IMG/VR virus record: IMGVR_UViG_3300007512_000085
Location: 1-40,600 of that record
Reading direction: 5' to 3' (one strand)
Source: a virus
DNA: 40,600 bases
This document shows, piece by piece, positions 1,515 to 37,400 of this stretch (positions are counted from its first letter, which is position 1; each line of letters starts with the position of its first letter). The notes below the pieces were generated by a model, which was given only the letters and a program-made list of their open reading frames with translations, ran no database searches and had not been told where the DNA came from. The translations under genes were made by a program, and so were the position numbers.

Positions 1515-3104
1515 TTATCCCTTATATAACCAACCAAATTGTTTGTGTGTATCTCTTGCCTGTTGCTCTTTGCCTTTAAGATCCATTTCGCTTCGATATC
1601 CTTCCTGTCCCTTAATTTGATTGTTTATTTTTGTAGATGCCACGAACATGGAATTCGCAAACGCATCTCTGTATTCTTGATCTAACTTACCTGCCTCAAA
1701 AGCCGTATCTCTTACCCAACAACCAATTGCCAAAGCCATAGTTAAATCGTCATTATAGCTTCTCATCGCCTCGGGGCGACCGTGGTTCCAGATAAAGGTT
1801 TTTAGCTCATTTAGCATTCTAGAAGAATATACGGTAATTAGTTTATTTCTAATGAATTCTTCCATTTTTGCAATAATCAAAGGACGGGTCTTAGAAGTGG
1901 TCGAGAAACCGGCAATAGCATTAGACATATTTTCGCCCCTCAACTGTTCAACATATTCATGTGTTGATTTGATAGAGAAATATATATTATTATATCTTAG
2001 TTCCTGCAACTTTGTTAATACTGCAATCCCAACGGAATTGTTTTCTACAACAACCATGGCATTATTAAATTCTCGCCCAATACTGTTAATCATATCAGAA
2101 TATACATCAAGAGTGGGTTTTCCTTGATATTCAGCAACTATTTCCATAGTTTCTAGCTTTATGACGTGAAGTGTAGAATTGTCTTTACCATCTCCTCGCG
2201 CTACATCTGCCGACAACAGGTAGTTGTAGCCATCTTGTGCCTTTTCCCAAATCCAAAAATTTCTATCAAACCCTGTTCTATATTGAGGTTCTTTGATTAA
2301 TGTGTGCATCCAATCCAAATCATCTGGGTGGATAACCGTTTCTCCAGACATATTGAAATTACATTCAAGCTCTTGCGCTATTTGTCTGCGAGACATGTTT
2401 TTAGTTTCTTTTTCAAACCATTCCTTGTCTCTATTGGGATGCACATCCCAGGGTAGAACAGTGGGGTAAAAATCATTCTGCTCTTGTGCTGAATCAGCGT
2501 ATATTTGATGAAACCAATTTCCGACACCGTTAGGAGTGGATAGAGCGATGCACCGCCCACCTGTTGATAGAGTGGGATAAAGACCGGTCCATAGCTCGTC
2601 TAAGCCTTCGACGTGTGCTGCCTCATCAATAACTAATAATGATAGTGCTTCGGAACGTCCAGCATCAGAAGAAGTAGATGATGCTTTAATTTCGGAGCCG
2701 TTTGATAGCACAAATGACGCCCGATTGTCTATGTCTATGCTTGCTATCTGCATCCAAGGAGGCAAGTTTTTAATAATGTGCTTTACTTTCTTTACAAGAT
2801 TTCCTGCCGTCTGAAACTTGGTCGCAATAACTAGAATATTCTTATTTCTATGAAATAACATCATCCAGGCAATGTAGGCAGCAGTTGTGGTGGAAATACC
2901 TAGCTGTCTTGCCTTCAGTATGACATTAAAGCGATGAGCATTAAAGTCCTTAAGCAATTCTTTTTGGAAGTCATATAGTTTAAAAGGAATCAGCCCGTCT
3001 ATGGGGTGAGCAATTCGTGCGTAATTATCAATAAAATAAACCGGATCTTTGCCGCTTTTTAATATTTCCTTTAAAATTTCATTTTTTGTAAGTTCAAACG
3101 ACAT
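1515..3104 (-). CDS. Terminase large subunit (packaging ATPase and headful nuclease)
   Basis: This is the motor that translocates DNA into the prohead and cuts concatemers. It has 529 residues; T4 gp17 is about 610, so it is somewhat short at the N-terminus. The ATPase comes first: adenine-side region around residues 40-60 (LYDFQKELLKDF), then a deviant P-loop KARQLGIST at residues 64-72. This lacks the GKT lysine of T4 and may use K64 or R66 instead. Walker B is LLVIDEAAHVE with D160/E161, and LSTPNG is the coupling motif. The C-terminal RNase H-fold nuclease has three acidic sites: D300 in SADVARGDG, E354 in VVVENNSVG, and D452/D453 in YNDDLTMA. The start is ATG at 3104, four bases after the TGA of the preceding gene. 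The portal follows after 5 bases. All motifs expected of an active enzyme are present. Confidence 0.97.
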   Translation of the reverse strand: MSFELTKNEILKEILKSGKDPVYFIDNYARIAHPIDGLIPFKLYDFQKELLKDFNAHRFNVILKARQLGISTTTAAYIAWMMLFHRNKNILVIATKFQTAGNLVKKVKHIIKNLPPWMQIASIDIDNRASFVLSNGSEIKASSTSSDAGRSEALSLLVIDEAAHVEGLDELWTGLYPTLSTGGRCIALSTPNGVGNWFHQIYADSAQEQNDFYPTVLPWDVHPNRDKEWFEKETKNMSRRQIAQELECNFNMSGETVIHPDDLDWMHTLIKEPQYRTGFDRNFWIWEKAQDGYNYLLSADVARGDGKDNSTLHVIKLETMEIVAEYQGKPTLDVYSDMINSIGREFNNAMVVVENNSVGIAVLTKLQELRYNNIYFSIKSTHEYVEQLRGENMSNAIAGFSTTSKTRPLIIAKMEEFIRNKLITVYSSRMLNELKTFIWNHGRPEAMRSYNDDLTMALAIGCWVRDTAFEAGKLDQEYRDAFANSMFVASTKINNQIKGQEGYRSEMDLKGKEQQARDTHKQFGWLYKG

Positions 3105-5111: not shown

Positions 5112-8100
5112 TTATTGACTTACGTGTGCATATCCATTTTTCTTCTCAATATTCACGACGTGATCAACACAATCCTTTAATGAGTCCAAGTGAGATATTA
5201 AAATGACTGTCTTAAAATATGATTTAACCATATCTAATATTCGAACAAATCCTTCTAAATTCTCTGCGTCAAGAGCCGTTCCTGGCTCGTCAAGGATAAA
5301 CATATTTGACTTCGGCAAATTGCTAACGTGTAATAACGAAAGTCTGATTGCCATTGAAGCGATTGTCTTCTCTGCTCCAGAACCCATTTCAATGGGGCGA
5401 GGTTCATGCTTCGGATGTTTAATGTAAACGTTTAAGCGCCTCCCATCATCTTCAAAAAAGACTTCGAAGTTAACAATGTTTGCTAATACCTTTGCAATCT
5501 CTTCATTGATAGCTGGCAGCTTCTTCTTAATAATATCATAAGAAATTCCACTGGTGTGCATACATCGCATAAACAAATCATAAGCAGAATACTCTTCTCT
5601 CAATTCTGATAGTTCGTTCTTTTGTTCAATTAAGCTTTGTAGTTTTTGTTCACAAGAGCCGTGAGAGATATATAAATCATTTAACTCCTGCTGGCATTCG
5701 TCACAATTTTTCTCTATTTTCTCAAGGGAAGTGTTGTATTTCTTTTTCTTTGTGACAAGCTGCTCCAGATTTTCAATTGCGTCTTTATTTTCTTCATATA
5801 TTGCGATTTGTTTTTCAGTATTTTCAATTTCGTGTTTAAAGATTTCTAGCTTGGATAAGTTGTTTTGCATCTCCAAGTTAGAAACAGATATCTTGTGTTG
5901 CACCTCTTTTTGTTTTTCCACCAATAGATCATATTTGTTTAGATAATCATCCAATTTGTCAACATCAAGATTGTGAATATCTTCCAAAAGCTGTACGCTT
6001 TGTTTGCGGATATCACTAATTTCCGTTATCATATTCGGCAATGCATCTTTTGCTGTGTGAGCATCACAAATAAACTTACAAGTTGGAAATGATTCGCCGC
6101 ATGGCACTTCCTTAAGGAGATTTACCTTTTTTCGATAGGCGTTAATATCTTTGTTCTTGTTTATTAAAAGCTGTAAGAAATCTTCATATTCCTCGTTTTT
6201 GTTCTCGACGCTCTTCTTTTTGTTTCGTAAATTTTCAATATCATATTCTTGCAGAAAATGGCTTAATTTCTCCGCTATTTTACTGTTATCGTTATTGCTT
6301 TCTGTAAGTTGTGTGTTTTGCTTTAACAGGGTGCGAACTTCATTCTTCTTTGTTTTTAGCGTATTTGTCGTCTCTTCAATGTCAATAATTTCTAGCGGAA
6401 TAGATGTAATCTTGTTTTCTAATTCAGCGATCAACGACTTAATGTCTATCATTTGTTGCTGATATTCTTCACACTTCTGTTTATGTTCTTCGATACTAGC
6501 TTCGCTCTGATGTATTTGTTCTTGTGCCTCTTCAAGATCTTCATCATATTCTCTGCCCTCAAGTCGCTTAAGCGCTCCTCGTAAATCCGAAGCGTCTTCT
6601 TTCGCCATCTTGAATTTCTTATCAAAAATTTCCAAATCAAGAAATTTGGCAAGGATCTCTTTGCGACGAGTTGAACCTTCTTTGATAAAGGTTAAGCTAT
6701 CCAACTGAGATGCCATGGAGGTAAGCAAAAAGTCATCAAGAGTTCCGAGCATCTTTCGGATATTTTTATCAGTATCGTTACGGGTCATTCCATTGTGACT
6801 TACAACCTGTTCCAAGGAAGCATCAACCTCGTTAAATTCTACTGTTGTCTTAGCTTCAAGCGTCTCTTCACCCTTTAACTTCTTAACGTATTTTTCGCTT
6901 TCTCGCTCAATTACAAACTGTTTATCGCCAATAGAAATTCCCACTCTACCGACGCCTCTCTCCCTGTTTTGATTAATCACGTTAAGGTTCTTCCTCTCAT
7001 TTTTGGAGGTAGAGTTAAACAGCGTATATAGGGCAGCATCAATGATGCTAGACTTACCTGAGTAGTTTTTTCCGAAGATTCCAACAATTCCAGATAGGTT
7101 GGCAAATTCTATAGAATTCGTTTCACCATAATTGAATAAGTTATCCCATTCAAAAGAGTCAAATTTCCAATTAATATTTCGAGCAACCTCTTCAGTTTCT
7201 TCTACTGCTCTATTGTATTTTGCGTTAAGTGTTAAGACTCTATCTAAAACGTCATCTTCGACTTCATATTCTTTTAAAAATTCTTTAATCAATCTTTTTT
7301 GAACTGTTAAGTCGCGGAGGTTTTCTTTTATAAAGTCATCACTTGTCAGACCAACATCGGCTCTATTGCCCAATGCACGATTCAAAAATGTAATACTTTC
7401 TGGCTTGAAGCGATGCTTCGCAACATCAACTGCTCTTTTCATTTTATCAAGCGACAGATTATTGTTAGATACTAAGCGAATACGAGCACCTTGTGGAACA
7501 TCTATGCCCTTTGGCATTCTGCCTTTTGGAGTCAGTTCGATTGTAGTAAACGGCTTGGGGTTTTGTAGTTCAACGTGACGAACAGTAAAAGAATCTTTGT
7601 CATCAATTTCCCAAAGTAAAAATCCTTTATCGTTAGTTTCACCGTGATTTTGCTGTACAGTAGAGCCGCAATAGCGCACTCGCCCCTCAAAATCAAGTGA
7701 TTGGCACTTATGAATATCGCCAAGCATAGCAAAATCGAACTTCTTAAAAATGCCCAATTCGTGTTCGCCGTGTTCCATGACCCACCCAATATCGGTCTTA
7801 CAGTTGCTAATAGCACCATGATAAAGAGCAATGTTGATCTTATCTGGTTTGGTTGGATCAATCCAGTTATCCTCATCAAATACAGACAAGATGTTAAAAC
7901 AAACCTTGTCGCTTGCATGGAATTCGCCGGAATCCTTAAAGAAATGTACCTCTGGATGTTCTAGTGCTTGAACAATCGGCGTAATAGCATCCTGGCGGCT
8001 GCTATTTTTTAAGTTACCATCATGATTACCCGGAACCATTACCAGCGGGGCAATATCCGCTAAGTTTTTTATAAAGCCTGTGGCAAGCTCAAAATATTCT

Positions 8101-8264
8101 GGTGATAATTGCGTCTTTGTGTGAGCCAAGTCTCCACAGTGAACAATATAATCTGGCTTTTCATCTCGAAGTACCTTATATAATTCCTCGAATATAATCT
8201 TATATTCGTAATGATACTTCAGATTTTTGATATGCGTGTCCGCAATATGTGCAATTTTAATCAT
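5112..8264 (-). CDS. Single-chain Mre11/SbcD nuclease - Rad50/SbcC ATPase fusion (gp47+gp46-like)
   Basis: It has 1050 residues in one frame. Residues 1-340 are a calcineurin-type phosphoesterase of the Mre11/SbcD/gp47 family: D9-T-H11, G44-D45, G79-N80-H81-D82, then YHGAIS and LGDIHKC. From about residue 363 it becomes a Rad50/SbcC/gp46 ATPase: Walker A GKNYSGKS at 398-405, two long coiled-coil arms (about 560-715 and 740-900), an apex Cys cluster C722-x6-C729 with C733, ABC signature EMGSGAEKT near 960, Walker B MFILDEPGTALD near 990, and H-loop LISHLD near 1020. The proteins are normally separate and form a heterotetramer that resects DNA ends for recombination-dependent replication. Combined T4 length is about 900, so neither half looks degraded. 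I found no internal Met near the junction that would give a free Rad50. The start is ATG 8264 after AGGA, 9 bases past the primase stop. Confidence 0.96.
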   Translation of the reverse strand: MIKIAHIADTHIKNLKYHYEYKIIFEELYKVLRDEKPDYIVHCGDLAHTKTQLSPEYFELATGFIKNLADIAPLVMVPGNHDGNLKNSSRQDAITPIVQALEHPEVHFFKDSGEFHASDKVCFNILSVFDEDNWIDPTKPDKINIALYHGAISNCKTDIGWVMEHGEHELGIFKKFDFAMLGDIHKCQSLDFEGRVRYCGSTVQQNHGETNDKGFLLWEIDDKDSFTVRHVELQNPKPFTTIELTPKGRMPKGIDVPQGARIRLVSNNNLSLDKMKRAVDVAKHRFKPESITFLNRALGNRADVGLTSDDFIKENLRDLTVQKRLIKEFLKEYEVEDDVLDRVLTLNAKYNRAVEETEEVARNINWKFDSFEWDNLFNYGETNSIEFANLSGIVGIFGKNYSGKSSIIDAALYTLFNSTSKNERKNLNVINQNRERGVGRVGISIGDKQFVIERESEKYVKKLKGEETLEAKTTVEFNEVDASLEQVVSHNGMTRNDTDKNIRKMLGTLDDFLLTSMASQLDSLTFIKEGSTRRKEILAKFLDLEIFDKKFKMAKEDASDLRGALKRLEGREYDEDLEEAQEQIHQSEASIEEHKQKCEEYQQQMIDIKSLIAELENKITSIPLEIIDIEETTNTLKTKKNEVRTLLKQNTQLTESNNDNSKIAEKLSHFLQEYDIENLRNKKKSVENKNEEYEDFLQLLINKNKDINAYRKKVNLLKEVPCGESFPTCKFICDAHTAKDALPNMITEISDIRKQSVQLLEDIHNLDVDKLDDYLNKYDLLVEKQKEVQHKISVSNLEMQNNLSKLEIFKHEIENTEKQIAIYEENKDAIENLEQLVTKKKKYNTSLEKIEKNCDECQQELNDLYISHGSCEQKLQSLIEQKNELSELREEYSAYDLFMRCMHTSGISYDIIKKKLPAINEEIAKVLANIVNFEVFFEDDGRRLNVYIKHPKHEPRPIEMGSGAEKTIASMAIRLSLLHVSNLPKSNMFILDEPGTALDAENLEGFVRILDMVKSYFKTVILISHLDSLKDCVDHVVNIEKKNGYAHVSQ

Positions 8265-8273
8265 ATGATCCTA

Positions 8274-9209
8274 TTAAATGCTAGCGATAGCGCTCTCTAA
8301 CAGATAATCTGTTTCCTGAACGAGCACTGCATTTTGCTTTCTTTGTAAAAACTCTTCTCTTCCCATGTCGGATACATCTTCATATCCGCTTATGTCTATT
8401 TTATACACTTCCAGACCATAATTCAAGAAAAGTTTTATAATTCTTTTTTCTTTATTGTCGGCATCTGGGTCTAGTGCAAGGAAAACTGGCGTGTCATTTT
8501 GCACAATTTTCATAAACAACTTGGAGCTTGGACGCAGGGTGGAGCCGAGCAATGGCACTGCATTTGGTCCCGCAACGATTGCATCGAATATTCCCTCTGT
8601 TATAACTAAATCAGTATCCCATTCAAGGTAAAGCTCATTGAACACCACATCCTTCGACACAGGAGGGTTGAGGTATTTGCGAGGATCCGAACAAAAGCTT
8701 CTTGCTACAAAATAGTTCAGATCTCCCCCCTCATTAAACGAAGGAACAATGATACGGTTGGCATATCTACCATCCATACAATATCCCATCTTCCAGTATA
8801 AGATGTCTTTATCTAATATATCACGTTTTTTAAGATAATTCAAGGCAGGAGATGCAGATAATGAAGGTTCATTGTTTAAAGAAATAAAGCCGCTTGGCAT
8901 CCCAAGATATCCAGAAGCCTTTACATCTTTTTTTTCTTCGACAAATAAATCATCAAACTCGTTGATATTGATACGATTTGTTAATTTATCCCACTCTTGA
9001 AGCTGATTAAAATCTCCGAACCGCCTTACAAGGCGACGAATGTCTCTACCGAGGGTTTCACATATCCAGCACTTATATACGTTTTTTTCGATATTAACTG
9101 ATAATTTCTTTTTATAGTGCTTGCAATACGGACACGCGAATAAATACTCGTCATTTGATCTGTAGCTATCGCCAAGAATGGCGGATATAATCTTAAACTT
9201 CTTCTGCAC
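8274..9209 (-). CDS. DNA primase, DnaG/T4 gp61-like (zinc-binding + Toprim)
   Basis: It makes RNA primers for lagging-strand synthesis. It has 311 residues. The N-terminal zinc site is C26-x2-C29 (FACPYCK) with C47-x2-C50 (YKCWIC). The catalytic core starts with the basic RNA-polymerase-like motif (NRIIVPSFNEGGDLNYFVAR, then PRKYLNPP, residues 151-183). The Toprim fold follows: E205 in LVITEGIFDA, and D247-x-D249 in FLALDPDADN. A short C-terminal end (DVSDMGREEFLQRKQ) closes the protein, with no helicase domain. The start is GTG at 9209; no ATG, GTG or TTG follows before the zinc site, so it cannot be moved downstream. There is no Shine-Dalgarno sequence. A consensus promoter lies directly upstream and its expected +1 is this GTG. 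It lies between the RuvC-like and Mre11-Rad50 genes. Confidence 0.93.
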   Translation of the reverse strand: MQKKFKIISAILGDSYRSNDEYLFACPYCKHYKKKLSVNIEKNVYKCWICETLGRDIRRLVRRFGDFNQLQEWDKLTNRININEFDDLFVEEKKDVKASGYLGMPSGFISLNNEPSLSASPALNYLKKRDILDKDILYWKMGYCMDGRYANRIIVPSFNEGGDLNYFVARSFCSDPRKYLNPPVSKDVVFNELYLEWDTDLVITEGIFDAIVAGPNAVPLLGSTLRPSSKLFMKIVQNDTPVFLALDPDADNKEKRIIKLFLNYGLEVYKIDISGYEDVSDMGREEFLQRKQNAVLVQETDYLLESAIASI

Positions 9210-9215
9210 AGATAT

Positions 9216-9244
9216 ATTATAACCGACGCAAAACTATCTGTCAA
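9216..9244 (-). promoter_or_regulatory. Exact consensus sigma-70 promoter upstream of primase
   Basis: On the minus strand TTGACA lies at 9244-9239, followed by exactly 17 bases and TATAAT at 9221-9216. Both hexamers and the spacing match the bacterial housekeeping consensus without a mismatch. The -35 overlaps the last codons of the RuvC-like gene and the spacer covers its TAG stop. Seven bases past the -10 is G9209, the first base of the primase GTG, so a transcript from here would have no leader. I checked the other TGTCAA sites I could find on the plus strand and none has a partner -10 at the right spacing. Confidence 0.85.
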
Positions 9245-9761
9245 GTAATAAAGGTCCAGCGAGAGCAACAACAAGAGCGTCTGCCCTATCATCTGTTCCT
9301 GGTTGTGGATTTCCTTGTCTTGTTAAATTATATTGAAACTGCTCTCCGAACCTCTCTGATATATTTTCAATGATTGCTTTTTTCTTTTCTTTGCCTGGAA
9401 CTTTTCTAGGTACCTTAATTCCGAGAACAGAACGGGCAGAGTTTGGATTAACAAGCGAAGCTTCTATTTCAAATATCTGATTCAAAATATAACAACACAT
9501 ACCATTAAATCGTTGAAGTGTTGCCATTGTAAATGCAGTTGTTTTGCCGCCACGAAACATTATCGCAGGCTGTTCGACGTATACATCATAAACAACATGA
9601 TGTGCATCGATCTCACGCATGCGCCTTTCAAATTGTACAGCACGCTCCTCCAAAGATAGGTTTGATTTAAACTTTAGCACATCACTTATTACGACTTTTT
9701 CTTTGTCTAGTAGTGCAATGCCGATTTTGGAGGAACTTATATCAAGTCCCAGTGTTTTCAT
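9234..9761 (-). CDS. RuvC-like Holliday junction resolvase
   Basis: It has 175 residues with the RNase H-like nuclease fold of RuvC-type resolvases. The first strand carries the catalytic Asp at residue 7 (TLGLDISSSKIGIALLDK). The second acidic residue is E63 in VYVEQPAIMF. The third acidic site is D157/D158/D161 in GTDDRADALVVALAG. SLVNPNSARSVLGIKVP with a following Lys cluster (GKEKKKAI) matches the DNA-binding region of the family. The enzyme cuts four-way junctions, which in large phages clears branches before packaging. T4 uses an unrelated enzyme, endonuclease VII (gp49), for this. The start ATG 9761 shares a TAATG with the stop of the 395-residue gene. The gene's end carries the -35 of the primase promoter. 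Confidence 0.92.
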   Translation of the reverse strand: MKTLGLDISSSKIGIALLDKEKVVISDVLKFKSNLSLEERAVQFERRMREIDAHHVVYDVYVEQPAIMFRGGKTTAFTMATLQRFNGMCCYILNQIFEIEASLVNPNSARSVLGIKVPRKVPGKEKKKAIIENISERFGEQFQYNLTRQGNPQPGTDDRADALVVALAGPLLLDR

Positions 9762-10948
9762 TATATATCTAATTTTAACTTAAATGTGAGTTCTCTATCT
9801 TCAGTTTTCTTAACTGGTGTTGCAACTTTAGCAATGGCAATTAAATTTTTATCTTCATCATAAATTCCTATTGAAGAAATATACGTGGTCTTTTGAAAGC
9901 TTCCTGTAGGATCTGGATATGATGATGAAACTATGTTTTTAATGCCTAAATTATTATTCTCTTTATATGATGATGTGGTGGCAAATGAAGCTGTATTTTG
10001 ATTGTATGTTTTAAAAGTGGGATTGTTTGAATGATTTAGATCGCCTTTTTCTGCATGGGCAAGCATCGTAACAGTTTGTGTTCTAGTGGTGCCCTTAAAT
10101 GTAAGTCCGAAACTAGATGAAGGGAGCTTCGCGCTAGCGATTCCATCTCCCGCACCTGCTCCAAAATAAATCCACTTGGGCTTAAAATTAGTAGTGCCAC
10201 CAGTATATTTTTCACCAGCAAAGCCAGCGTAATCCCCGGTTGCCATATCCCAATTGCCTGTTAATATTACGAACCCTTCATTATACAATACAACGCCAGC
10301 GACGGTGCCGGAATTTGTACTATCAGTTGGTCCAACTTGGATAAGTTCTCCGTCTTTGTTTTCATCTTTTAGTTGCCCAACGATGGTGCCACTAACATAA
10401 AATTTTAAATCAACTGTTCCTTTTTTAATTTGTGAGCCGAAAATAATTGATGGAATACTTATGAGGTTGACATTTTGTGTTCCTTTATCCCCAAGTGGTC
10501 CGTTAAAAGCATAGTGATTGCTCATTGGCTGGTAGTAATTTAAAGTATTTATTAGAGATGTTAGACGACCAGCAGATGATGTTCTCTGTGTTGCAGTTGA
10601 AGCGAAGAACTCTCGGACAATACTGGCAGACATTGGATAGCTGCCGGATAATACATCACTGTAGACAAATGCATTAAAGTCTGAAGATGAAATTGTTTTA
10701 AATGAACTTAGCGAGCTATTTTTGGTAATAAATGGATATATTTTATTGGCGCTTGTACGATCAACGTTAAGCTCGTATAAGCTAACGAATCCTGCTGGGG
10801 TGTCGCCAATGTTTGAAACATTAGAACCTACAATCTTGCCCCGACTATTTAGATAGATTTGGCTATCATATATCACGAAGCTACACTCTGGATGCATCTC
10901 TAGAGTGTTTCTAAATATATCATTACTTTTGAATTTTTTATAAGCCAT
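9761..10948 (-). CDS. Virion structural protein, paralogue of the upstream 378-residue protein
   Basis: It has 395 residues rich in Ser, Thr, Asn and Gly with alternating strands, typical of tail or fibre proteins; no named family is recognised. The N-terminus has NDIFRNTLEMHPECSFVIYD. It aligns with the neighbouring 10969-12105 protein at several points: IKKG near residue 175, a YNEGFVILTGNW strand, SNNPT, YISSIGIYDEDKNLIAIAKV, then PVKK and a final ELTFKLKLD. D195-E-N197-K-D199-G resembles a calcium-binding loop. The paralogous pair suggests duplication, perhaps with the two occupying related positions in one fibre or collar. The start is ATG 10948 with only a weak ribosome site; the gap to the previous gene is 20 bases. 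Confidence 0.82.
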   Translation of the reverse strand: MAYKKFKSNDIFRNTLEMHPECSFVIYDSQIYLNSRGKIVGSNVSNIGDTPAGFVSLYELNVDRTSANKIYPFITKNSSLSSFKTISSSDFNAFVYSDVLSGSYPMSASIVREFFASTATQRTSSAGRLTSLINTLNYYQPMSNHYAFNGPLGDKGTQNVNLISIPSIIFGSQIKKGTVDLKFYVSGTIVGQLKDENKDGELIQVGPTDSTNSGTVAGVVLYNEGFVILTGNWDMATGDYAGFAGEKYTGGTTNFKPKWIYFGAGAGDGIASAKLPSSSFGLTFKGTTRTQTVTMLAHAEKGDLNHSNNPTFKTYNQNTASFATTSSYKENNNLGIKNIVSSSYPDPTGSFQKTTYISSIGIYDEDKNLIAIAKVATPVKKTEDRELTFKLKLDI

Positions 10949-10968: not shown

Positions 10969-12105
10969 TTAATAATCTAATCGGACGCGAAGAGTTAATT
11001 CTGTATTTGGATCCTTCTTCAGCGGCTCGCTCAATTTCGCAACCGCTAACAATTCATTGTCAGAAGAATAAAGTCCAACGGTAGTAATATAAGATACTGG
11101 CTGATCTGAGGTGCTGTTTTTAACTCTAATTTGGCTGCTGCTCAAATAAGTGGGGTTAGAACTATAGTTAAACTCATTGTGATTAGCTCGACAGAAATAT
11201 ATTGTTGAGTTTAACTCTACTGTATTGTTGAAAGAAATATTCTGAATTCTGTTTCTAATCGTATCACAAATAAAGTCCATAGTACCGGCGCTGCTGGTTA
11301 ATAGTTGCCCAAATGATGCCGAGAGAGGTTGGTCACCGAGTCCCATCATAGTAGAAGCTGTCGGTAACCCTTGTCCAGCCGAGGGGATGTGAGCGTTGTC
11401 GCGTATTTGATTTTGAGTTACCGGGTTATTCCAAATTCCACCAGTAACCATAGCAACTCCAGCTTGATAAAACAGTAGCCCATATCCAGAGCCTGCATTG
11501 GGCTGTCCCGAGGATGTATATAGTATACCATATTCTCCAGCGGGTGAGTTAACATAATAACTACTTGTGGCAGAATAATCTCCTAGAGTAAGAACACCGC
11601 CGATTGCGTTGGAATATTGTGCGCCTGCGGGCTGTCCTCTTCCTCCACCGGTAACAAAGGCGACAGCGAAGCTGCCTTTTTTAATTTCATCTTTTGTTAA
11701 AAGACGCGCAAAGTTTAGAAAGAAGACTTCTCTATGTTTGGTGCCACCCGTAGCAAGATTGCCATCTTGATCGAATTCTTGGATTTCTCCGAGTGAATTA
11801 TGCCCCATCAGTACCTGAGCCATTTGAGAATAAATATTAATCTTCTTGGCGTTTTGTGGCACAGAAGAAGCAGATAGTGTAGAACCTGAAGAATATCCTA
11901 CTGCAATATCGTAAATGTGATTTGCTGAAGAACTTAAATATGGATAATCATAGACGGACTCGAACATACCATGAGAATACTTCTTGATATTATTATCTGA
12001 ATAAGTTCCAGAGCTTATTGTTCCTGTTAGCGGGAGCGCTTCGTGAAGTAGTGTTCTCGTATTTGCAGTATCGTTTGCAGTTAGAGTTTTATAAGTGGTT
12101 GCCAT
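10969..12105 (-). CDS. Virion structural protein, paralogue of the 395-residue protein
   Basis: It has 378 residues of low-charge, Ser/Thr/Gly-rich beta-type sequence with no named family. Matches to the next gene downstream are clear: DEIKKGSFAVAF, LFYQAGVAMVTGGIW, SSNPTYLSS, YITTVGLYSSDNELLAVAKL, EPLKK, and terminal ELTLRVRLDY. FDQDGNL in the middle is a possible cation loop. The start is ATG 12105 with AGGAC 8 bases before it. It stands between the 296-residue structural protein and its paralogue, so it is probably expressed with the late tail proteins. A fibre, tip or decoration role would fit but is not shown by any motif. Confidence 0.82.
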   Translation of the reverse strand: MATTYKTLTANDTANTRTLLHEALPLTGTISSGTYSDNNIKKYSHGMFESVYDYPYLSSSANHIYDIAVGYSSGSTLSASSVPQNAKKINIYSQMAQVLMGHNSLGEIQEFDQDGNLATGGTKHREVFFLNFARLLTKDEIKKGSFAVAFVTGGGRGQPAGAQYSNAIGGVLTLGDYSATSSYYVNSPAGEYGILYTSSGQPNAGSGYGLLFYQAGVAMVTGGIWNNPVTQNQIRDNAHIPSAGQGLPTASTMMGLGDQPLSASFGQLLTSSAGTMDFICDTIRNRIQNISFNNTVELNSTIYFCRANHNEFNYSSNPTYLSSSQIRVKNSTSDQPVSYITTVGLYSSDNELLAVAKLSEPLKKDPNTELTLRVRLDY

Positions 12106-19910: not shown

Positions 19911-22900
19911 TTATGTCGATCCATAGCCGCCGGGGCCAAATCCTCCACCACCAGTGAAGCCTCCAGGCATGCCTCCACCTCCGGTGCCACCGGGTGGCGG
20001 ACCTGTTTGTCCGCTGGTGCCTCCCATTCCAGCAGTCCCGCCAGTTCCTCCTCCACCATTAGGTGGTGGTCCTGTTTGTCCGCCGGTACCGCCCATTCCA
20101 GCAGTCCCGCCATTTCCACCAGTGCCTCCATTCGTTGCGTCATCTAGAGAAGCATCCTCACCAAGTTCAGTGGTGGCGGCAGTCTGAAGCTCTCCCAACT
20201 CTGTTAATACATCAGATCTTCTGCTGTCTGGATAGAACGAAACATCGTCTTCGATCTTAACAAGCTCTACCAAAGAGAAGAAGTCATATGGCCAATTGTA
20301 GCTTTGAACATAGTCCTCTCCTTTTTCGATTGCACCCTGACCTGCGCCTTGTGCAACATATTGAGTAGGGGCAAGGGTGGCAGCTACGAAAGAAGTATTA
20401 AAAGCAGTTGATGGTGAAATATTTGCGTTATTAGTTACTGTCTTGTTAAAATAGTTGCGAGCGGCTCTTTGCTTAACTTTGAACACCATCCATTGTAATT
20501 TTGGATCGATTGCTGTTAATAGTTCACCTTCTTGCAAAAAGTGTGTTATGGTTTTAGATTGTACAATATCTTCTGTAATTAATGGAGTATCTGGGTCGAA
20601 CGCTCGTCCAATGCGAGGAGGAAGATTCTGCCAAATATCAACCAAATCTTGCCGATCAAGGCTGTGTTCAAATTCAAATATATACATTGAGATTGCGGGG
20701 ACTTGATCTGGGTATGTAATAAAATCCATACTGGGCGGGAATACATATCTCTTCATTGCATCAATCTGGGTTTTAACGGACGGTCTTACGCCTTGAATTG
20801 CGGATCCTTCCGGTGCTTCAATGGCGGCTTTTACTTGAGCAAGGTTGCTGCCGGGTCTATAAAATTGTCGGGCTCCATTTTGTTCAACAAACGGAACAGC
20901 AACAACGGCTTCTCGAATCACCTTCTTTGGAGCTACCTGACCGAGAGGCTGCGGTCTTTTCGAAAATCCGACTAGATCAGCTAGCGAACCGGTTGCCCTC
21001 CCTTTTGGACTCACGCCGCCTGGCCATGGCACCACACCACCGGCACCTTGGAGTGGAAGAACATCGTCAACATCGAAGGGGGTGTCAGCGACTTCTAAGA
21101 ATATACCTTCCGAACCGGATGGGAGTCGCCCGTATTGATGCCACATCCCAATTGGGCGAGTTGCCGCGCCGCCTGACATATAAGTTGGGGATGAGTGAGA
21201 GCCTGTGTTTTCTGCCATTGTAGTGACGCCTGGGGGTGTTGCACCGGTAGAACTGCTGCACTCGATAAAGTTTAGTATTGGCGTTTCAAACTTCGCTTGA
21301 ATTACCCATTGTCCCTGATCGTCAGCAGTATAGCCTGAATATCTTAGCAGTTCTTTAAGACCCTTTGTTGTGCCAAATATATTAATTGAACTTGTAACTT
21401 GATTAGAATTTGTATTACACTGATCGGGACCATACATTGGACCGCCCTTCCCGGCGCTGCCTTCACCCTTCGATGTTATTGCCGTGCTGGGGGCATTTCC
21501 CATCCCTTCAGCCCAGGGAATGCTGCCCGCGCCTGCGGTGATCCTGGGTCCGCCAAATCTCATATAAGATGCTGTTAGTCTAGATAAGAAAGTTTCTAAT
21601 TCGATGCCAATTCCTTTATCAGCATACAAACCAGGATTATATTCCAAATCTGCCCAGGCTTCTCCATCATAGTAACAAGGCGTAACGTGCGGATAATATC
21701 CATGGCGGGAGTCTCCATAAAAACCACGGTTGATATCCGACTTGGTATAGACAGTGCTAGCAGAAAGGTTTGGACCGCCTCCAATGGGTGGACCAAAAGC
21801 AGATGGTCTACTATACATACATATTGTTTCTGATCCAGAAATAACTTGAGGGAAAGAGCTGCCGGTAATCGTCAGGTTTTTGTAATAGAGGGGTGCGGAG
21901 CGGGAGTCGAACCTCAAGCTGTTAACGCCGGGTTTCTCTTCATAAGATTTTCGAACCTTTATTCTCATTCTATAAGTTTTGTTTGGATCTGGCACCTTCC
22001 ATTGAGATTGAGGTGCTGAGAAAAACGAGGTAAATGTGCCGTTCTCTAAGAAAAATTCTGGAGTTTCTGCTAAGAAATTGTGCGCTGCTCGCTTATATCT
22101 TTCATCGCCGTCTCCTTTCCAAACCGCATGGGCATTGTCCTCCGGTGCCCAGGAGCCCGAGAAAGAACAAGAAGGATGAGGCTCCATGTCATATATTTTT
22201 TTACCGGCTATGTGAGCTTCCGGCTCTACGAGCGCTTCAAATGGCACACGTTCATCAAACGTCTCCTGTACAATTACATAAGAAGGCACTTGGTGGAAAT
22301 TTTGCGGTCCCAGACCGTTATCATAAGCACCGGTCCAAGGAGATTGTGCTGTGCATATCGGAAAATCAACGGCTAATCCAGATTTAATAGTGTTAAACAT
22401 TATTCCTGGTGCAAACATCGGGGTCAAAAATGATCTCCAAAATGCTTCTCGCGGTGTGTTATCCAAAAACTTCTCCGTGCTGCTCACAACGTGAGTCGCA
22501 TTACCAGTTAAGTGAACATACTGACCATACGATTGGGAAAATAACTGGGCTAACTGCAATGTTCTTTGGGCTGGGTAAAAGCCCTCATAGGGCAAAAGTT
22601 TCATTAGCCCCTTACATGTAACTGAAAATTCGGTGGCAACGCTATTTAGCAGAACACTTGAAGATTGTTGCATAACATCAAAATATTTCATAAAATCGCT
22701 GTGGCTGTAGGTCTTATAAAAGTTGTCTTGTAAGCTTGATGTTATAGTGGGTGCTGCACCTGTTAAACTAAAGAGTGCCGGGTCTGTAAACGGATCGATA
22801 CCCTGAACAAGATAGTCCTCCATATGATCGCTCATTCTATATTCTGGGATAATTGAATAGTCTTTTCCGTGCAATCGCATATGTTCTGTATAATCATTAT

Positions 22901-25900
22901 ACGAATCATAAAATGGGAACTTGCCGGATTGATTGCCAGCATCCCATGGGGCATCACCTGCAAAGGGAATAACTGTGGTGGGGAGTGTTTGCTGGCGCTC
23001 AATACAATTTGCGCCCCATCTTGAAGACCATGGTAAAACACTTGTGCCTGTCAACAACGTGTGTCTTCTGGCATACATGGCAGATGCAGTAATTGCATAT
23101 CGATTGGGGTTCATTGCAGCAAGAAGATTCGTGCCACCACCAGCCTTGTTCCACGGATGAGCAGGGGAATACGGTGTATGAACCGTGGTTAAACTGTTCA
23201 TAAGTTCGCCTTCTCCACCTCCGCGACGACGCTGGGTGGTGGGACTGTGCGCGAGGTCGCCGTTCGAGCCCGAAGCAACCCAAACATAGGGAGCATCTTC
23301 GGTGGTAGTCCTGAGTGTGTTGGTGCCATCACTTGTCATATCAAATTCAAGTCTTGCATCCAGTGGCCATATACTTGATGTTGGGATCACGGAGCCCTGC
23401 GAGCTTGAGATAGGTGGCTGATCTAGGACTTTTAAAGTGTCAGCAGGGAGACTGCGGGGTAGCGTTGGAACTCCAGCGGCTCTAGCAATTCGATTATCCC
23501 GCCAGAAAGACTTGTAGGTTGTTCTACCACGGACATATGGGCGATAAAGATTAATTGATTTTGGAAACACTGATTCAGAATATGTATGTCCAGTATAATC
23601 ACCATCAATCATTGTTCGCCCAAGAGACATAAAGCCCATTAGATAATCGGCTCCAGCAGGCGTGGTTGAGTTTCCTGCAAAATCAAGTTGCGGTGGAACA
23701 AGATTTAAGTTAGCATTTAATTGGTCATTGACAAAATACTCTTTTTCATTTTTATATGTTGCCTTCCACTCGACCACGGGCATATATGTCGATGCATTCG
23801 CTGTCGGAGAAAAGGTTTGTATGCTAACATCTGTTGTAAAGACCACCGGTTTATTAAACGACACAACCGGTTCGTGGAACTGTAGCACTCTTTGTGCAGG
23901 TCCGTGAATATAAGTCGGAGATAGTCCATATATCTTTGAAATATTTGTTGCGTCTTTTTTCTTTCCATTGCTCCAATGAGCCTGTAATTGTGAATTGTTA
24001 ACCCAATCGTACCCTCGATATCCGTTTTGTGCTCCAAGAGTCTCGCGGGTTGTGGCAGGATCCAGCATTGATATTGTATTATTTTTTCTCATTAATCGGA
24101 CAAGAGGGTGGTATTCGTTTCTTACCTGTCTCCAAGAAGTATAACCATACGGTCCCTGTCGGTGGAGTATAAGTGCGTTAAGAGCACTACCGGTTGTTAC
24201 GATGGAAAGGTCGTTGGAGAAGGTGCCGGGGGAACCGCCGTCGCTCCACAATGCAAAGGGGGATATCCCCGATTTGATCGCTCCCCCCAGGCAAGCAATT
24301 GAAAGGTTTCGGTAGGCACTTGCACTCTGTGGATGTGTCACATAGTTTGTAATTGGCTCTACTGGTGCTTCTAAAATATTAAATGCCGAACCCGTTGGAT
24401 CATACATTACTGTGTTCAAGCCAACAAAGTCCACTGGAATGCCCAGATTACCCGGATCCGGGTTTGAGCCACCTGCATATCGAGAGATCGACGCCGAATA
24501 TTGGCTAGCAGATAAGAACGTGATAGCCGGGACAAGTTGACCGGGGGTATCAAGTCGTGTTGAGACGGTACCGGATATCATTCCAGAAGGGGGAGCGTGC
24601 CCAATTCCGCTGCCAGCTATCAGATTACCGGTTAAAATAGCAGGTCCAATCGAAGAATATTGATAATCATTTTGTGGGATTGGGTGCTGAATCCACCAGT
24701 TGTCATATACAGAACCCGATGTAAATCTGCTACGACCACCATGGAAACCAAAGTGCAATTGACTTCCTGAAGCATATGGGTCTAAGAGACGACCTGGGAA
24801 CGGACGTTGTGCGGCGAACCCGCTTACACCAAAGGTGTTGCCGTCCCAATAGTCGCGGGAACCCGAGTGTTGCATACATTCACGTAACTGAATCACGTTA
24901 TAAAGTTGAGAATCCATTGTAACTGTCGAATTTCCGTATGGCCAGGATCCTTTTACGACCTGTTGGACATAAACATTCCAGGTGTCCGGGGCGAGAGCGT
25001 TGACCCTGTAATCGGCATTCCAAAGTGGGTTTGCAACGGGATCGGACGCCCACCACCACCAGATCGAATTGCGAATCTGTATTACTACTTCCTTGTGGGT
25101 TGTATCGCCACTGATTCCTATTGTTCCGTTTGCGTAGGCGGCGGTAGTTTTGTCAAACGTAAATGTTTTTTGAGTTCCATTTTGGGCTCTAAGAGTGAAA
25201 CTATATCCATGATAGTTATCCAGGTTAAAAACATTGTTAACAACGTGGATCGCCAAGGTACCAGGGCGGGGCTCCGCTTCGGTGACTTGTACTTTTGCAT
25301 TTCTATTAACTTTGTGATATGATGGTTCTGCTATAAAAGAAGCCGATACGATGGGGTTATCCGTCATACCGTCAGAACCCGCCTGTCCACAGTGAAGGGT
25401 TAAAAGAGTTCGAAGTCCACGGTTGCGACCCAAATGATCCGTGACGCCTATCGTTGCTGTTCGTTCTTTGGGGCTTCCCGCTGCTAAGGTGGCTGCTGGC
25501 TCGCCCGAGCCAGAGCCGCGCACCATTAGGTTTCTCCAAGGCAGCGCGTTATACGCCGAATATTCTGCTGCCATAACGTCTAAGAAACCCAACGAGTTGA
25601 CCTCTGGTCCGCCAGGGGCTGAGAATCTTTCAACTATAACCGCTGATTGTGTTGCCCTGTTTGGAACCTGAAGCACTGTGCCGGAAGTGCTCACAGTGTT
25701 GGCATCAACTGCTTGTGGATGATATAAGTTAGATACTCTGCTAAGATTTTTTGTTTGTTCATTGGTCCCGCCCACATTGGGACCGGCAAGAAAACCATTT
25801 CCACGGTTCCAGCCAGCTTCCGAAACGGGTCGCACCCCAACTAATGTATGAACATTTGTAGTTTTAGGTTTATCAATAGCATATCTTGCCGGAAGTAGGG

Positions 25901-28900
25901 ATCCAGACGTTGCGACATCTCTAAACCAGAAATTGTTTGTGCTTCTTCCAGAGCTTTGCACTATCTGATATGTTTTCTCGTAGTTGCCAATTGGTCCGTG
26001 TTCTAACACGCCAGAAAGCACAGTATCTACTGATGCCGTGGTTTGAAGAATGTTTTTAATATTAACAGGGCGTTTTGCTGTTTCTTCTCTGAAAAACCAC
26101 GCTCTATATCTCTGCTGATCGGGATATGGACCACCATAATCGGGACCGGTTAGTCCGAGGGTGCCTGAGTCGCCAACGTCGACATCTGTGAGGTGCTCTC
26201 GACCACCACCGAGAAGAAGTCTGAAAGCTTCCGGGCGTGTATATTGACTATCTAGATTATTTATTGTAGTGTCTGTTTCATCACCAACCGGGCGCTCACC
26301 GGAATCCACGCCGCCGACTGCGTGGTAATTAAGTCTAACATGCCTAGATTGGTGACCTCCCACATATTTCTCGGCAAACGGTCCTTGCATTGGCACTTCA
26401 TTATACACGCCATATCCATCTTGATGTAAGTTGGTCAATAATGAACTGGAAAGAAATTCGTTCTGGATAAGGGAGTTGTAGCCCATTGGGTGAAGAACAC
26501 CGTCGATGTCTTTGTACCACCCAACAGTACCATAAGCGGCACTCATTATGTTAAATGGCATTGCGATATGACCTTTGACGCCATCAAATGTACCGGAGGG
26601 GGTTGTGACGCGACCAGTGTGGGTGCCAAAATTAAGCTTTCTTTTCATATTTGGCTTTATTTCATCATCGCAATCGACCAACATTTGATCTTGGTTGCGG
26701 AACACAAGCAAGATATTTAATGGAAGACCTACGCTACTTTTGGGTCCGTGAGGAAATGTCATTCCTCTATAGTAATTTATTTTTTTATTGGCATTATAGT
26801 TAATGCCGCCATGGAGTTGCAGCGACTTGTCAACAGTATAACGATATGGTGTTGACCATTGCCGTTCGAGCACCTGTTTGGAGGCTGTTAAAATAAGATT
26901 TCTAGCTACGCGGACGCTGCCTGTTACAGATAGACTGCTTGTTTGGTTGAGAGGAGATGTGTCACGTTCAGCAAGATGTTTCCAATAAAAACATTGATCA
27001 GATTGTAATCCCGATAGGGGTCTGCGGGCTCTATTCCAATTAAAAAGTAATCTGTTTATTCCATATGCACCCGTTTCAGGTGTTTTCGCACTAAACTCAA
27101 GAGTTGGGAATTTGCTCCAATACTTGCTTCGTTCTAAAATATGGCTCTCGACAACATTGTCGATTCCATCGCTTACTTGTGCCGAGGCGGGCACAAACTG
27201 CATAAGCATCGTTTCAAGCGTTGCGTCAATCCACTTATAAAAATCGATAAATTTATCTAAATCTGGGGTGTTTTTGACACGCTCAAAGAAGAATTGGCGT
27301 AAATATTTAAGACTCTTATATTCTGGACGATAACGGTGGACCGGTTCTCCAATTAAATTGTTGAATTCGGCTATCGATCCAAAATAATTAATAATCTCAT
27401 CTGAAATAACTTGGTACATGCTTTTTTCAAAAGCATAATAGGTTCGTGTGGGTCTTGTTTCTCTGGTAAACACCTCAGTTTCTGCCTGTGAGAGCACCCG
27501 AATATTATCTTCTCCGTACACAACTTCGGGAAGCTGTTGGATTCCGGCATACAAAAATTGTGGTTCAACAGAACCAGTGGAGCTTGCCTGGAAAGAGAAC
27601 CCCCTTCCGGTGTGCTGGTATTTAACTATATTTCCAAGCCAATCATATCGCTTTGCTTCAGCGACGGAGCCTGAAGATACATCTTGGACAGTAAAGCGCC
27701 CATTAGCATTAGACCCTGTGACGGTTTCAAAATCCCAGTAAAGAGCTAGAGACTCAATTTCTGGCACTTGTACATTTGCCAAATCCGATTCTAACAAATA
27801 AGAATCTCTGGCTGGATTCCTACGTCCAAAGTTACCGGGATCTATAGCATGTGCTTGTATCGCAGCATCGCCTATATAATCAAACCAATATCGGAAAGAA
27901 GTTACTTTGACATCGGAATATTGTACTGTTGAACCAGTAAAGTCTGTACGATGAGCACCAACATACACTCTCTTCGAAGATGTTAAGAATGCTTCTGCTT
28001 GTGATGCAGGGACCGATGCTGTAACTTTAAATTGATTTACCTGCCTGTCAGCAATATAATTAACGCCATAAAATTCTACATCATAACGTGAAGCTGCTCC
28101 ACTGGCAAAAGAATGTGGGTATCCATATGGTAATAGTCTGACTGCAAAGTTCCATTTTGAATCATCATATACATTCGTAAACACACTACTAGTAATGCCG
28201 CTGTCGAATGCCATGTCTTCGCCAAGAACGAGCCCCCCTATTGAAGAGGTTAGTTTAAAGTATACATCTCCTGAATCGGCTCCATTTTTTATTGCGTAAA
28301 CTTGCAAGTTGGCTGCATCGGGAGTGTTCCAAGTTAAATCTGTCTCTGTTCTATCCATTGAGGCGGAAGCTATCGCCGTATGTATTCCGAATAGTGATAC
28401 TGTAGTATACGAAAAGTCTTCGATAGCCTTGTTTAAGCTATAATAGCCCTTTTTGGCAGGGAACATAACTTCTGCTTCCAATGTAATTGGAAATGTATCC
28501 TCATACGTTTTGCCTTCGGCTGCGCTACCAGAAATATAGGACACACTATTAGGGTTGGAAGTATCGGCATATTGATGGACCGTAGCGGCAAATCTATCAA
28601 TGTGATTAAAATCAACTGCTTTGGTCTTATATGATGAAGCTCTGCGTTTAGTTTCGAGTTTATATGTTTGGTTGTCTGCATAAGCATTAAGTCTTATTAA
28701 GCTTTCGTCCACGCCAAAGCAACGAACAAGATTTCTAAAAGCATTTTCTGTGCCTTTGGTTTTATACAGGGTAGCTAAATTGTTATAAATGTTGTTGTAT
28801 ACAAAACTCTTAATAGTTTGTAAGTCTTCGCCGTATTCTTTGTCTTCATTGCGATTTGCATAATATTCAAACAAATTGGCGTTAGAAAATAGTTCAGGTG

Positions 28901-34410: not shown

Positions 34411-37400
34411 TTAAAAGGTAGTATTGAGCCCTGCTTCTGCAAGAAACGGATCTTTATAAACTGTTTTTCCACCACCATAAATAGAACTGGCTAGTGTTTG
34501 TAGTATAGCAAGTTTTGTTTTACTTAACATATCGCCCAATTTGATTCCGGCTACTTCTCCTGGGAATACAGCAGTGTCTGTTAGTGCTGCATGTTGATAG
34601 ATGCTCATTGAAGCTACCATTTCTTTTATGGGATATAAGCCATAAAATAGAGCCTTGTATTCGTCTGTACTCCACATCTCTTCTAAAAGTTTTGCCCAGA
34701 TCTCGTCTTCTTCTTCTGCGGTGGGTTGTACATATTTGTCACCCCCCTGGGGCATTATTGTCTTGATAAGATCGTGTTCACATCGAACTTTAAATATTTC
34801 CTGTACATTGCCCGCTTGTATGGTAGTGAAGAGTTCGCCGGTTCCGCCACCCATATCTGGACTTATTGAAAGGAGAGGTTTGACCAAATATAACCGGATT
34901 TCATAGACATTGCTTTTTTGGGTCGATCCACGGTTATTAGAATCGTCTTCTTGATAATCTTCGTGCTTTACTTTACCAAACACAAATGCTGGTCGAGCTT
35001 TCCTTTGTGGGTGGAAATATGGCAACTTGTCTATTTCTGGTTGTATTTCTGTCGCCCAATCGCCCACAATGTTTATGAAGGGCATTCCGACAATGGTGTC
35101 TTTTTGTAGGAGTTGCGAGGGGGTGGATGGAGTGTCCGCAAGGGAGTGCCCAAATGGATGGACATCTAAATTTACTAATCCAAATACTTGTTCAGTTAAA
35201 AAATAATCCCACGGATATTTTCGAGCAAGAAGGGGAATTGGGCGGGGAGTCATACTTAAACCCCCTTGGAGGCGGAAGACAGCCCCCGCGCTGCCTCGGC
35301 GCGGGCTCCACTCCGTGAGTTTTAAACCTGATTCGATTGGACTCTTTAAGTTCTCTATTTCTTCTGCAATAAGTGATAATAATGCAGATTTGCCATTCTC
35401 TGTATCAGTACCACCTGTAAACGTTTTTGTATCGTCGCCCGTAGATTCTAATATTTTATAATAATGTAATGCAACGTCTTGAACATCCTCTAATATGCTA
35501 CCACCATATGTCGGGAAGCTGTCTCGCCATTTTTCTAATTCTGACTCTATTGCGCTATAAACAGAATTTATAAACATTTCACTGTCCATGAACGATCTAT
35601 CGAAAGAGTCAAATACTTGGATGCAAAGAAGGGCTCTTTCTACTATAAAAGTACGTACTAATAAGAGCACACTTGTAATACTTGTTGCTCTGCGACTGGC
35701 ACTTAGATCGTCGCAATATGGCTCCTGCTGTTTCTGCCCTTCTATATCAGCCATAGTAGCATCTTCCGGTAGAAGCTCCACGTCAACAGAGCCGCCTCCA
35801 AGCTCAAAGGGGCTTGGTTTTGATTCCATTTCGCTTTTTACTGACAAAGAAAGAGCGGTTGATGCCAGATTTGCTGTATCTTGTGCAAGATTTTCGAAGC
35901 CCAGAAGATCTGCCAAAGGCAGATCTAACATATCAAACTTGGAAGAAGCCTCCCAGTGTCCTCTTTTCCCGAATTGAACTTCTGGTGTAGCATATTGTCC
36001 CAAGCCGAAACTTCCGCTAAAAAAGTCACTGTTGGCAACATGGTGACCAAGCCACTGCATAATGTCATCGAATAACAAATCCGCAGTAAGGTTTTCTGCT
36101 GTCACCCCTTGATCATAGCTAGGAAACGCATACGCCTTAAGCGCATTCCCGTCAGCATCTGTGACCCCTATGTCTTCTGAATATTCATATCTTTGGTTGC
36201 TTGCGTCTCCTGATGGATTTAATCCTGGGGGGGATCCCCATGTGCTCTTGTCGTAACCAAGATAACTTTGGTCAATGAAACCACCAAAGTCGTTTTTACA
36301 TATATTTTGGATTTTGGTTTGTAGCGAGGAGTACACACCTTCATCTATGGTATGTGAAGTAGGTATATCTGCATCAACGCTGCCGTCGCCGTCGCTGTCC
36401 TGGTTAACAAGGCTTGGAAATATAAATTTTCCTTGATCATATGCCGTAAATATAGATCCTTGAAGTATCTCTTTGTCTATCGAAGTTGAAAATTCTGTTG
36501 AAAGCATGGATGCTCCGTCTCCAACCATATGGTCAGCTATATTAGTTGCTCTACTTCCTATAACATAATCCGATTGTTGTATAACCACTCGTTCTTCGGC
36601 ATCTGCGAGGCGACCGCTCATATTATTGTATACTTGCACTAGATTTTGTGTCCAACCTGGGGGTCGAGTTGGTCCCTCTACGGGCTCGCCGTATTTAGTG
36701 AGTTCGAATCGCATCAATGTCGGGGTATTTGAGCCCCTGGCCCACCACATCGTAAGGTATTCGTCGGGATCGCCGTTCCAAGGATACCACTCAGTTACGA
36801 GGGGCTCAAAGAATCTCTCATTTGCGTCGTAGTCGAATCCGCGCCCCGTGTCGCCAATTGCTTTTGGGGATTTTTTATTAGCCCTGGATTTAGAGTCGGC
36901 AATCTTCATAAACTTAATCTTAAGCCACTCGGCTGGAGTCCAGGCGTTATCCACCTCGGGCAATTCTCGATGTTCGATCCAGTTTTTTCCTAGTTTTCCC
37001 TCGTCGTCGTAATAAATCGGAACAAACGATTCAAACGACGTATTTTCGGTATCGTATGCCCCGAGCATCAGATCCTGTAATATGTCCCCCACCACCCAGT
37101 CATCATCACCATCCTTCCAGGGACCGACCCATTCCCAATTCTTGTGGCTGAAGATATTTCCCGATCCATCATAGACATAATGGTTCGTAATCCCTCCTAC
37201 ATCGAAGAAAACGTTTTTTTCTTGCCCGAAGCTTTTGAATTCGCGGCCTCTGAATTTGTACTCCCCGCCGCCACTTGCTACGCCGTAGCCCTTGTTGTCG
37301 TCTTGCAACTTGGCAAGAACTCCACCGGGCGCGAGTGGCCAGTCCCCCGGAGAAGGCTCGTCTGGGGTAAATATAGGGTACCCTTCTGCCAATGTTTGTA

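Follow-up and report, generated by a model that had tools for sequence, protein, structure and literature searches.

A single-gene Mre11-Rad50 of an aquatic phage family, with a CX6C hook and a sister group that has split the fused gene again

Background

As separate chains, Mre11 (SbcD) and Rad50 (SbcC) form a 2:2 (1:1) complex. Their fusion into one polypeptide was described by Yoshida, Claverie and Ogata in 2011 for Mimivirus R555 and twelve more proteins, other hosts being bacteria, plasmids, eukaryotes and a Bacillus phage (PMC3175470). In aquatic metagenomes, the viral size fractions were rich in R555 homologues, R555-like scaffolds carried phage genes including primases, and many of these fusions were proposed to be phage-owned (PMC3175470). 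R555 shows two active-site changes: in GDxxD the third Asp is replaced by His, and in motif V the first His is replaced by Asp (PMC3175470). The motif at the apex of the Rad50 coiled coil has been described as a highly conserved CXXC (PMC9569753). Furthermore, phage genes split by homing endonucleases are known, for instance Aeh1 nrdA/mobE, T4 60/39 (topoisomerase) with mobA, and gene 43 (PMC2988022).

Here we analyse a fusion gene in a 40.6-kb fragment of an IMG/VR virus record, hereafter the window. The gene is a member of the R555-like viral Mre11-Rad50 fusions, an already described kind common in aquatic phages, as follows from its adjoining primase, from the presence of both R555 substitutions (H48 and D183, shared with its aquatic relatives) and from giant-virus homologues as its best fold matches. 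The original prediction, which could not tell whether such fusions had been catalogued, was thus preceded by the catalogue of 2011 (PMC3175470); the parts worth following are the hook variant and the re-split relatives, and to the known group we add longer phage contexts.

Results

As the original prediction had read it, both halves lie in a single frame, and the 1050-aa protein matches Metallophos at residues 2-186 (E 1.6e-13) and AAA_23 at residues 375-604 (E 2.2e-11) in Pfam, as well as the SbcC-like phrog_77 over residues 209-1048 (E 2.6e-63; Table 1). The AlphaFold2 model, built with 85 homologues (mean pLDDT 83.9, pTM 0.55), describes the monomer only, and its domain arrangement, as taken from secondary structure, runs from the phosphoesterase through the capping region and helices 319-333 and 337-357 to a seven-residue linker and the Rad50 head from residue 365. 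The helix-loop-helix is expected to dock on the Rad50 coiled-coil base. Foldseek against solved structures, run on a first AlphaFold2 model (19 sequences, weak in the ATPase lobes), gave matches including Mre11, SbcD, Mre11:Rad50 and MRN, with the capping region falling on 7dog, an SbcD nuclease and capping domain. Among viral models, the best matches were giant-virus proteins of about 970-1390 aa (Tupanvirus, Harvfovirus, Yasminevirus, Terrestrivirus, Catovirus), followed by those of the Tenacibaculum phages PTm1 and pT24. A BFVD match, the 1009-aa "recombination exonuclease" of Listeria phage LMTA-57 (A0A068CB47), aligned over most of the fusion; it may be a further fusion, although phages of that type mostly keep the two genes apart, or it may be an artefact of annotation.

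Table 1. Features of the fusion gene and its conserved neighbours, in window coordinates
Feature	Positions	Strand	Evidence
Mre11-Rad50 fusion gene (single ORF, ATG start, 1050 aa)	5112..8264	minus	Pfam; phrog_77; 89 further distinct full-length homologues
Mre11-like phosphoesterase domain, residues 1-243	7536..8264	minus	Pfam, 90-homologue alignment, Foldseek, AlphaFold2
Loop, residues 186-195, split site in sister phages	7680..7709	minus	split relatives
Capping region, residues 244-318 (approximate limits)	7311..7535	minus	AlphaFold2 secondary structure; Foldseek to 7dog
Helix-loop-helix, residues 319-333 and 337-357	7194..7310	minus	AlphaFold2; same position in PMC3175470
Inter-domain linker, residues 358-364	7173..7193	minus	AlphaFold2; alignment; dN/dS
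Rad50 N-lobe, residues 365-541	6642..7172	minus	Pfam, AlphaFold2
Walker A GKNYSGKSS, residues 398-406	7047..7073	minus	90-homologue alignment
Ascending coiled coil, residues 545-720	6105..6632	minus	AlphaFold2
Zinc-hook apex, residues 720-737 (C722-X6-C729 plus C733 replacing CXXC)	6054..6107	minus	alignment
Descending coiled coil, residues 730-902	5559..6077	minus	AlphaFold2
Rad50 C-lobe, residues 903-1050	5115..5558	minus	AlphaFold2
ABC signature region GSGAEKT, residues 961-967 (SGAE, not SGGE)	5364..5384	minus	alignment
Walker B region ending DEP, residues 988-994	5283..5303	minus	alignment
H-loop H1025	5190..5192	minus	alignment
DnaG-like primase, directly upstream of the fusion	8274..9209	minus	phrog_47 E 5.5e-39; synteny
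RuvC-like Holliday junction resolvase	9234..9761	minus	phrog_159 E 4.9e-13; synteny
Terminase large subunit, T4-type, downstream end of the conserved block	1515..3104	minus	PF03237 E 9.2e-16; synteny

The gene order RuvC, primase, fusion, small ORFs and terminase is widespread in the family, a primase being present in 67 of the 69 loci that have at least 1.5 kb upstream. Relatives also keep, immediately upstream of the RuvC-primase-fusion block, a pair of adjacent ORFs with similar C-termini (9761-10948 and 10969-12105, minus), which are probable paralogous structural proteins. Two large minus-strand ORFs near the baseplate genes, of 3555 aa (19911-30578) and 2055 aa (34411-40578), have no Pfam match and probably encode some type of tail or fibre protein. 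As the window is a fragment, the lack of a second Mre11-Rad50 pair in its source genome is judged from relatives: all 11 related contigs of 131-204 kb have the fusion as their sole Rad50-type ATPase and contain neither a second, separate SbcC/SbcD pair nor a second Metallophos ORF of SbcD size, the other Metallophos ORFs (in 4 of the 11) measuring 220-258 aa. A UvsX/RecA-type recombinase (phrog_97) accompanies the fusion in 10 of these 11 large relatives, and also in Microcystis phage Mel-JY01.

This co-occurrence, together with the primase and resolvase neighbours, points to a role in end resection like that of T4 gp46/gp47. The fusion is very probably the phage's own Mre11-Rad50 DNA-end nuclease (of the SbcD-SbcC, T4 gp47-gp46 type) in one polypeptide of the R555-like family, serving resection for recombination-dependent replication. 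That its main role would instead lie in phage conflict, by degradation of host DNA or attack on rival genomes, finds some backing in T4 gp46/47 mutants, which fail at host DNA degradation according to a passage quoted in PMC5105663, but we regard this as quite improbable, since the conserved linkage to primase and RuvC-like resolvase and the co-occurrence with RecA/UvsX indicate replication and recombination, and since both roles can coexist.

The motif residues named by the original prediction were all correct, in the phosphoesterase (D9, H11, D45 and N80-H81-D82) as in the ATPase (Walker A G398-S405, signature S962-G963-A-E-K, Walker B D992-E993 and H-loop H1025); what its reading had missed were the GDIH form of motif V, the SGAE signature and the CX6C hook, and it had given no strand. 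All five phosphoesterase motifs are present with their metal ligands (D9, H11, D45, N80, H149, D183 and H185), D183 replacing the first His of motif V, a position at which most Mre11 proteins have His. Homologues were collected by two viral-contig scans, one bacterial/archaeal genome scan and from phage records; the 103 loci with an ORF spanning both halves amount, with the window, to 90 distinct proteins. D45, N80, H81, H149, D183 and H185 are invariant in these 90, and D9, H11 and D82 are kept in 89. Motif II is GDxxH in place of the SbcD-type GDxxD (H48 in 89/90), and motif V is GDIH in place of GHxH, the latter in 216 of 217 distinct family members; as ABC signature, each of the 217 members scored has SGAE, SGME or SGSE. 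From 16 close pairs we computed a dN/dS of 0.049 for the Mre11 core, 0.031 for the Rad50 N-lobe, 0.072 for the coiled coil and 0.015 for the Rad50 C-lobe.

Given D183 in motif V and a hook that is not CXXC, the protein may depart from the textbook enzyme in its activity or in tethering. The same two features would suit a protein whose nuclease function has been lost and which acts as a structural, SMC-like DNA tether, its Mre11 part being kept for docking. Such a loss is very improbable, however, as all seven metal-ligand positions hold metal-binding residues that are nearly invariant, the nuclease core has the low dN/dS given above, and Asp is able to ligate Mn.

The Mre11-Rad50 junction is under strong purifying selection, with a dN/dS of 0.034 over residues 330-375 and of 0.032 over residues 345-365, and residues 309-358 are free of gaps in 90/90 fused homologues. 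With an ungapped junction and so low a dN/dS, the gene is translated as a single chain and the fusion is no sequencing error, the case (an error at residues 330-370) that the original prediction had named against itself. Its statement that no internal ATG near residue 363 would restore a free Rad50 also stands: the sole candidate start in codons 300-400 is TTG325, which has no Shine-Dalgarno-like sequence, and relatives of the fusion share no conserved internal start, so that a free Rad50 made in this way was rejected. As a general explanation of the fusion, a hidden stop-start or sequencing error is thus excluded. Although some relatives encode two ORFs, it is hardly credible that sequencing or assembly produced the fusion, or that two proteins arise from the gene by cleavage or by a second initiation, because the identical ungapped junction recurs in 90 distinct proteins from many metagenomes, the fusion is found in the complete genome of phage Mel-JY01, the junction evolves as slowly as stated with no conserved start inside, and the two-ORF relatives break at residue about 190, away from the Mre11-Rad50 border.

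These split relatives, first found by a DNA-pattern scan for the CX6C hook, form a sister group in which an upstream ORF of 215-220 aa with all metal-ligand motifs is followed by an ORF of 860-877 aa beginning at window residue about 196. The two usually overlap by a few nucleotides (often 4), or leave a gap of up to about 180 nt. Scans with both pieces, followed by classification, gave 26 distinct split loci (among them L138, L157, L195, L226, L250, L290 and L333, and, with an insert, L254, L233, L330 and L003), all cut in the same loop after GDIH, that is, inside the nuclease domain and not at the border of Mre11 and Rad50. In fused relatives this loop reads, for example, YRETSDGEKKPWIAYPG, and in split ones the first piece typically ends with VEIEIDEDDLxKYPGxxxIE before its stop codon and the second restarts M[SG]KKIKIKVKKPWIAYPG. 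The gap in L254, L233, L330 and LR756508 (L003, a 484-kb phage) holds a gene whose 300-aa product has a zinc ribbon and weakly matches Vsr, DUF559, PvuRts1I-like or TnsA-like nucleases, as a homing endonuclease would be expected to do. On the tree, the fused and split states have changed at least 11 times, and the split L253 adjoins L190 and L229, both fused. By analogy with the phage genes cited above, the split likely reflects invasion of the fused gene by a homing endonuclease and later loss of the endonuclease. A limited literature search found no description of re-split fusion genes.

The unit kept joined in the split relatives is cap, helix-loop-helix and Rad50. The nuclease core may come as a separate piece, and the exact chain connectivity is dispensable, since sister phages cut inside the nuclease domain with the Mre11 cap and helix-loop-helix still joined to Rad50. 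The same phages weaken the original idea that the covalent link constrains docking, and the companion idea that it fixes stoichiometry adds little, because the complex of separate chains already has one Mre11 per Rad50.

A GIY-YIG/NUMOD3 endonuclease ORF follows a complete fusion gene in L026 (9198-10180) and also in L025 (6959-7896), and after it comes a second copy of the last 60 or so Rad50 codons, 81% identical, which looks like a duplication of the 3' end on either side of a homing gene. A group I intron behind the split or behind the L025/L026 insert was unsupported, with no Rfam match at the gathering threshold in L003, L025 and L026.

The apex of the window protein reads VPCGESFPTCKFIC and carries C722-X6-C729 plus C733, with no CXXC at the coil apex; the separate-chain comparators, T4 and E. 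coli included, have a CPxC hook. Among 174 distinct family members chosen independently of their hook, 142 have CX6-7C, 16 CXXC and 16 neither, some of the last being cut by contig ends. CXXC is probably the older state, since the outgroups Mel-JY01, LR756501, pT24 and PTm1 all possess it. On a tree made from the heads alone, CX6C and CXXC interchanged at least 8 times, and comparison of close pairs gave an identity over the 25-residue apex of 36-44% between hook types versus 79-96% within a type, the latter even where the adjoining coil is at 20-50%. This pattern looks like the exchange of a small cassette; that the cassette sets dimer compatibility is only a guess. No description of a CX6C hook in this family was found in a limited literature search. 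A far-reaching combination of these observations, in which CX6C would be a new kind of hook, CX6C and CXXC would be exchangeable yet mutually incompatible cassettes that block pairing with the enzyme of a co-infecting relative, and the fused gene would also be a recurrent homing site whose nuclease domain is repeatedly cut into two reassembling pieces, seems to us rather unlikely as a whole.

Trees of the Mre11 and Rad50 halves, deep and with long branches, combined representatives of the fused proteins with eight pairs of separate chains (T4, S-SKS1, Cr30, LysYB1, a T5-like phage, E. coli and two MAGs), R555 being left out. The aquatic fusions, Mel-JY01, the 735-kb phage LR756501, pT24 and PTm1 form one group (98/96 in the Mre11 tree, 91/93 in the Rad50 tree), and the window fusion, a single chain unlike T4 gp46/gp47, lies outside the T4-like clade in both. 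In the fused protein of Xanthomonas phage phiXF1, the Mre11 half clusters with the fusions (93/87), and the test does not reject a single clade for the Rad50 half (AU p 0.455); an independent origin of the phiXF1 fusion, first hinted by LG trees, was withdrawn on these two results. A single origin of the phage fusions is thus allowed by the trees, not proven. A cellular origin was rejected: the genome scan gave phage-like contigs in MAGs (L114, L115), a scaffold with N runs (L116) and the MAG loci L117 and L118, where SbcD and SbcC are separate; a Vibrio campbellii plasmid match also proved to be a separate pair. L116 is CP070664.1, a WOR-3 MAG chromosome with phage pieces bounded by N runs; its phage-like part also carries primase and RuvC genes, and it looks like a scaffolding error.

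Discussion

We infer for the fusion an M2R2 assembly, nuclease activity and the biological role given above. Two fused chains would pair via their Mre11 domains, their Rad50 heads (on ATP) and the hook into the usual M2R2 machine, in which helix-loop-helix 319-357 would clamp each nuclease to its own coiled-coil base. ATP binding and hydrolysis would then open the nuclease to DNA ends, and resection would provide 3' single strands for a UvsX/RecA-type recombinase; strands loaded in this way would feed recombination-dependent replication, and perhaps host DNA degradation too.

The fusion amounts to a compact single-gene Mre11-Rad50, expressible and solvable as one chain, with the pairing of nuclease and ATPase fixed. 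Furthermore, one family holds a natural series, from fused genes to genes split inside the nuclease, either with a homing-endonuclease-like gene or lacking it, and in addition two hook types; such a series would make it possible to ask what covalent links and what hook chemistry the machine really requires. As the hook has been described as a highly conserved CXXC (PMC9569753), a conserved CX6C would offer a direct test of how far tethering depends on CXXC geometry.

In comparison with the invaded phage genes (PMC2988022), where an essential gene was entered and a two-piece enzyme remains, as would also hold for the sister group, the target is here an Mre11-Rad50 fusion cut within its phosphoesterase domain, and the inserted gene is of a zinc-ribbon and Vsr/PvuRts1I-like type instead of HNH or GIY-YIG. 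With the R555-like fusions (PMC3175470), our protein shares the domain order, the helix-loop-helix and short linker (358-364 here, about 9-12 residues as proposed there), GDxxH and GDxH, the aquatic viral habitat and the scaffold primases. It differs in its length (1050 aa, versus 1351 aa in R555), and neither a CX6C hook nor re-split relatives are mentioned in that paper.

The complete genome of Microcystis phage Mel-JY01 encodes one 1066-aa fusion (WWT39521.1, 31% identity over 99%), annotated merely as "AAA domain containing protein", with a DNA primase-like gene upstream as in the window, but with a CXXC hook and an SGME signature. Tenacibaculum phages pT24 and PTm1 likewise carry both halves in a single ORF of 1310-1318 aa in the same clade, but at about 23% identity, with a longer coil, a CXXC hook and no adjoining primase match. 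Finally, T4 gp46/gp47, cyanophage S-SKS1 and other T4-like pairs have homologous parts and presumably do the same job, but with two genes, GHxH in gp47, and a CPTC hook on a short coil in gp46.
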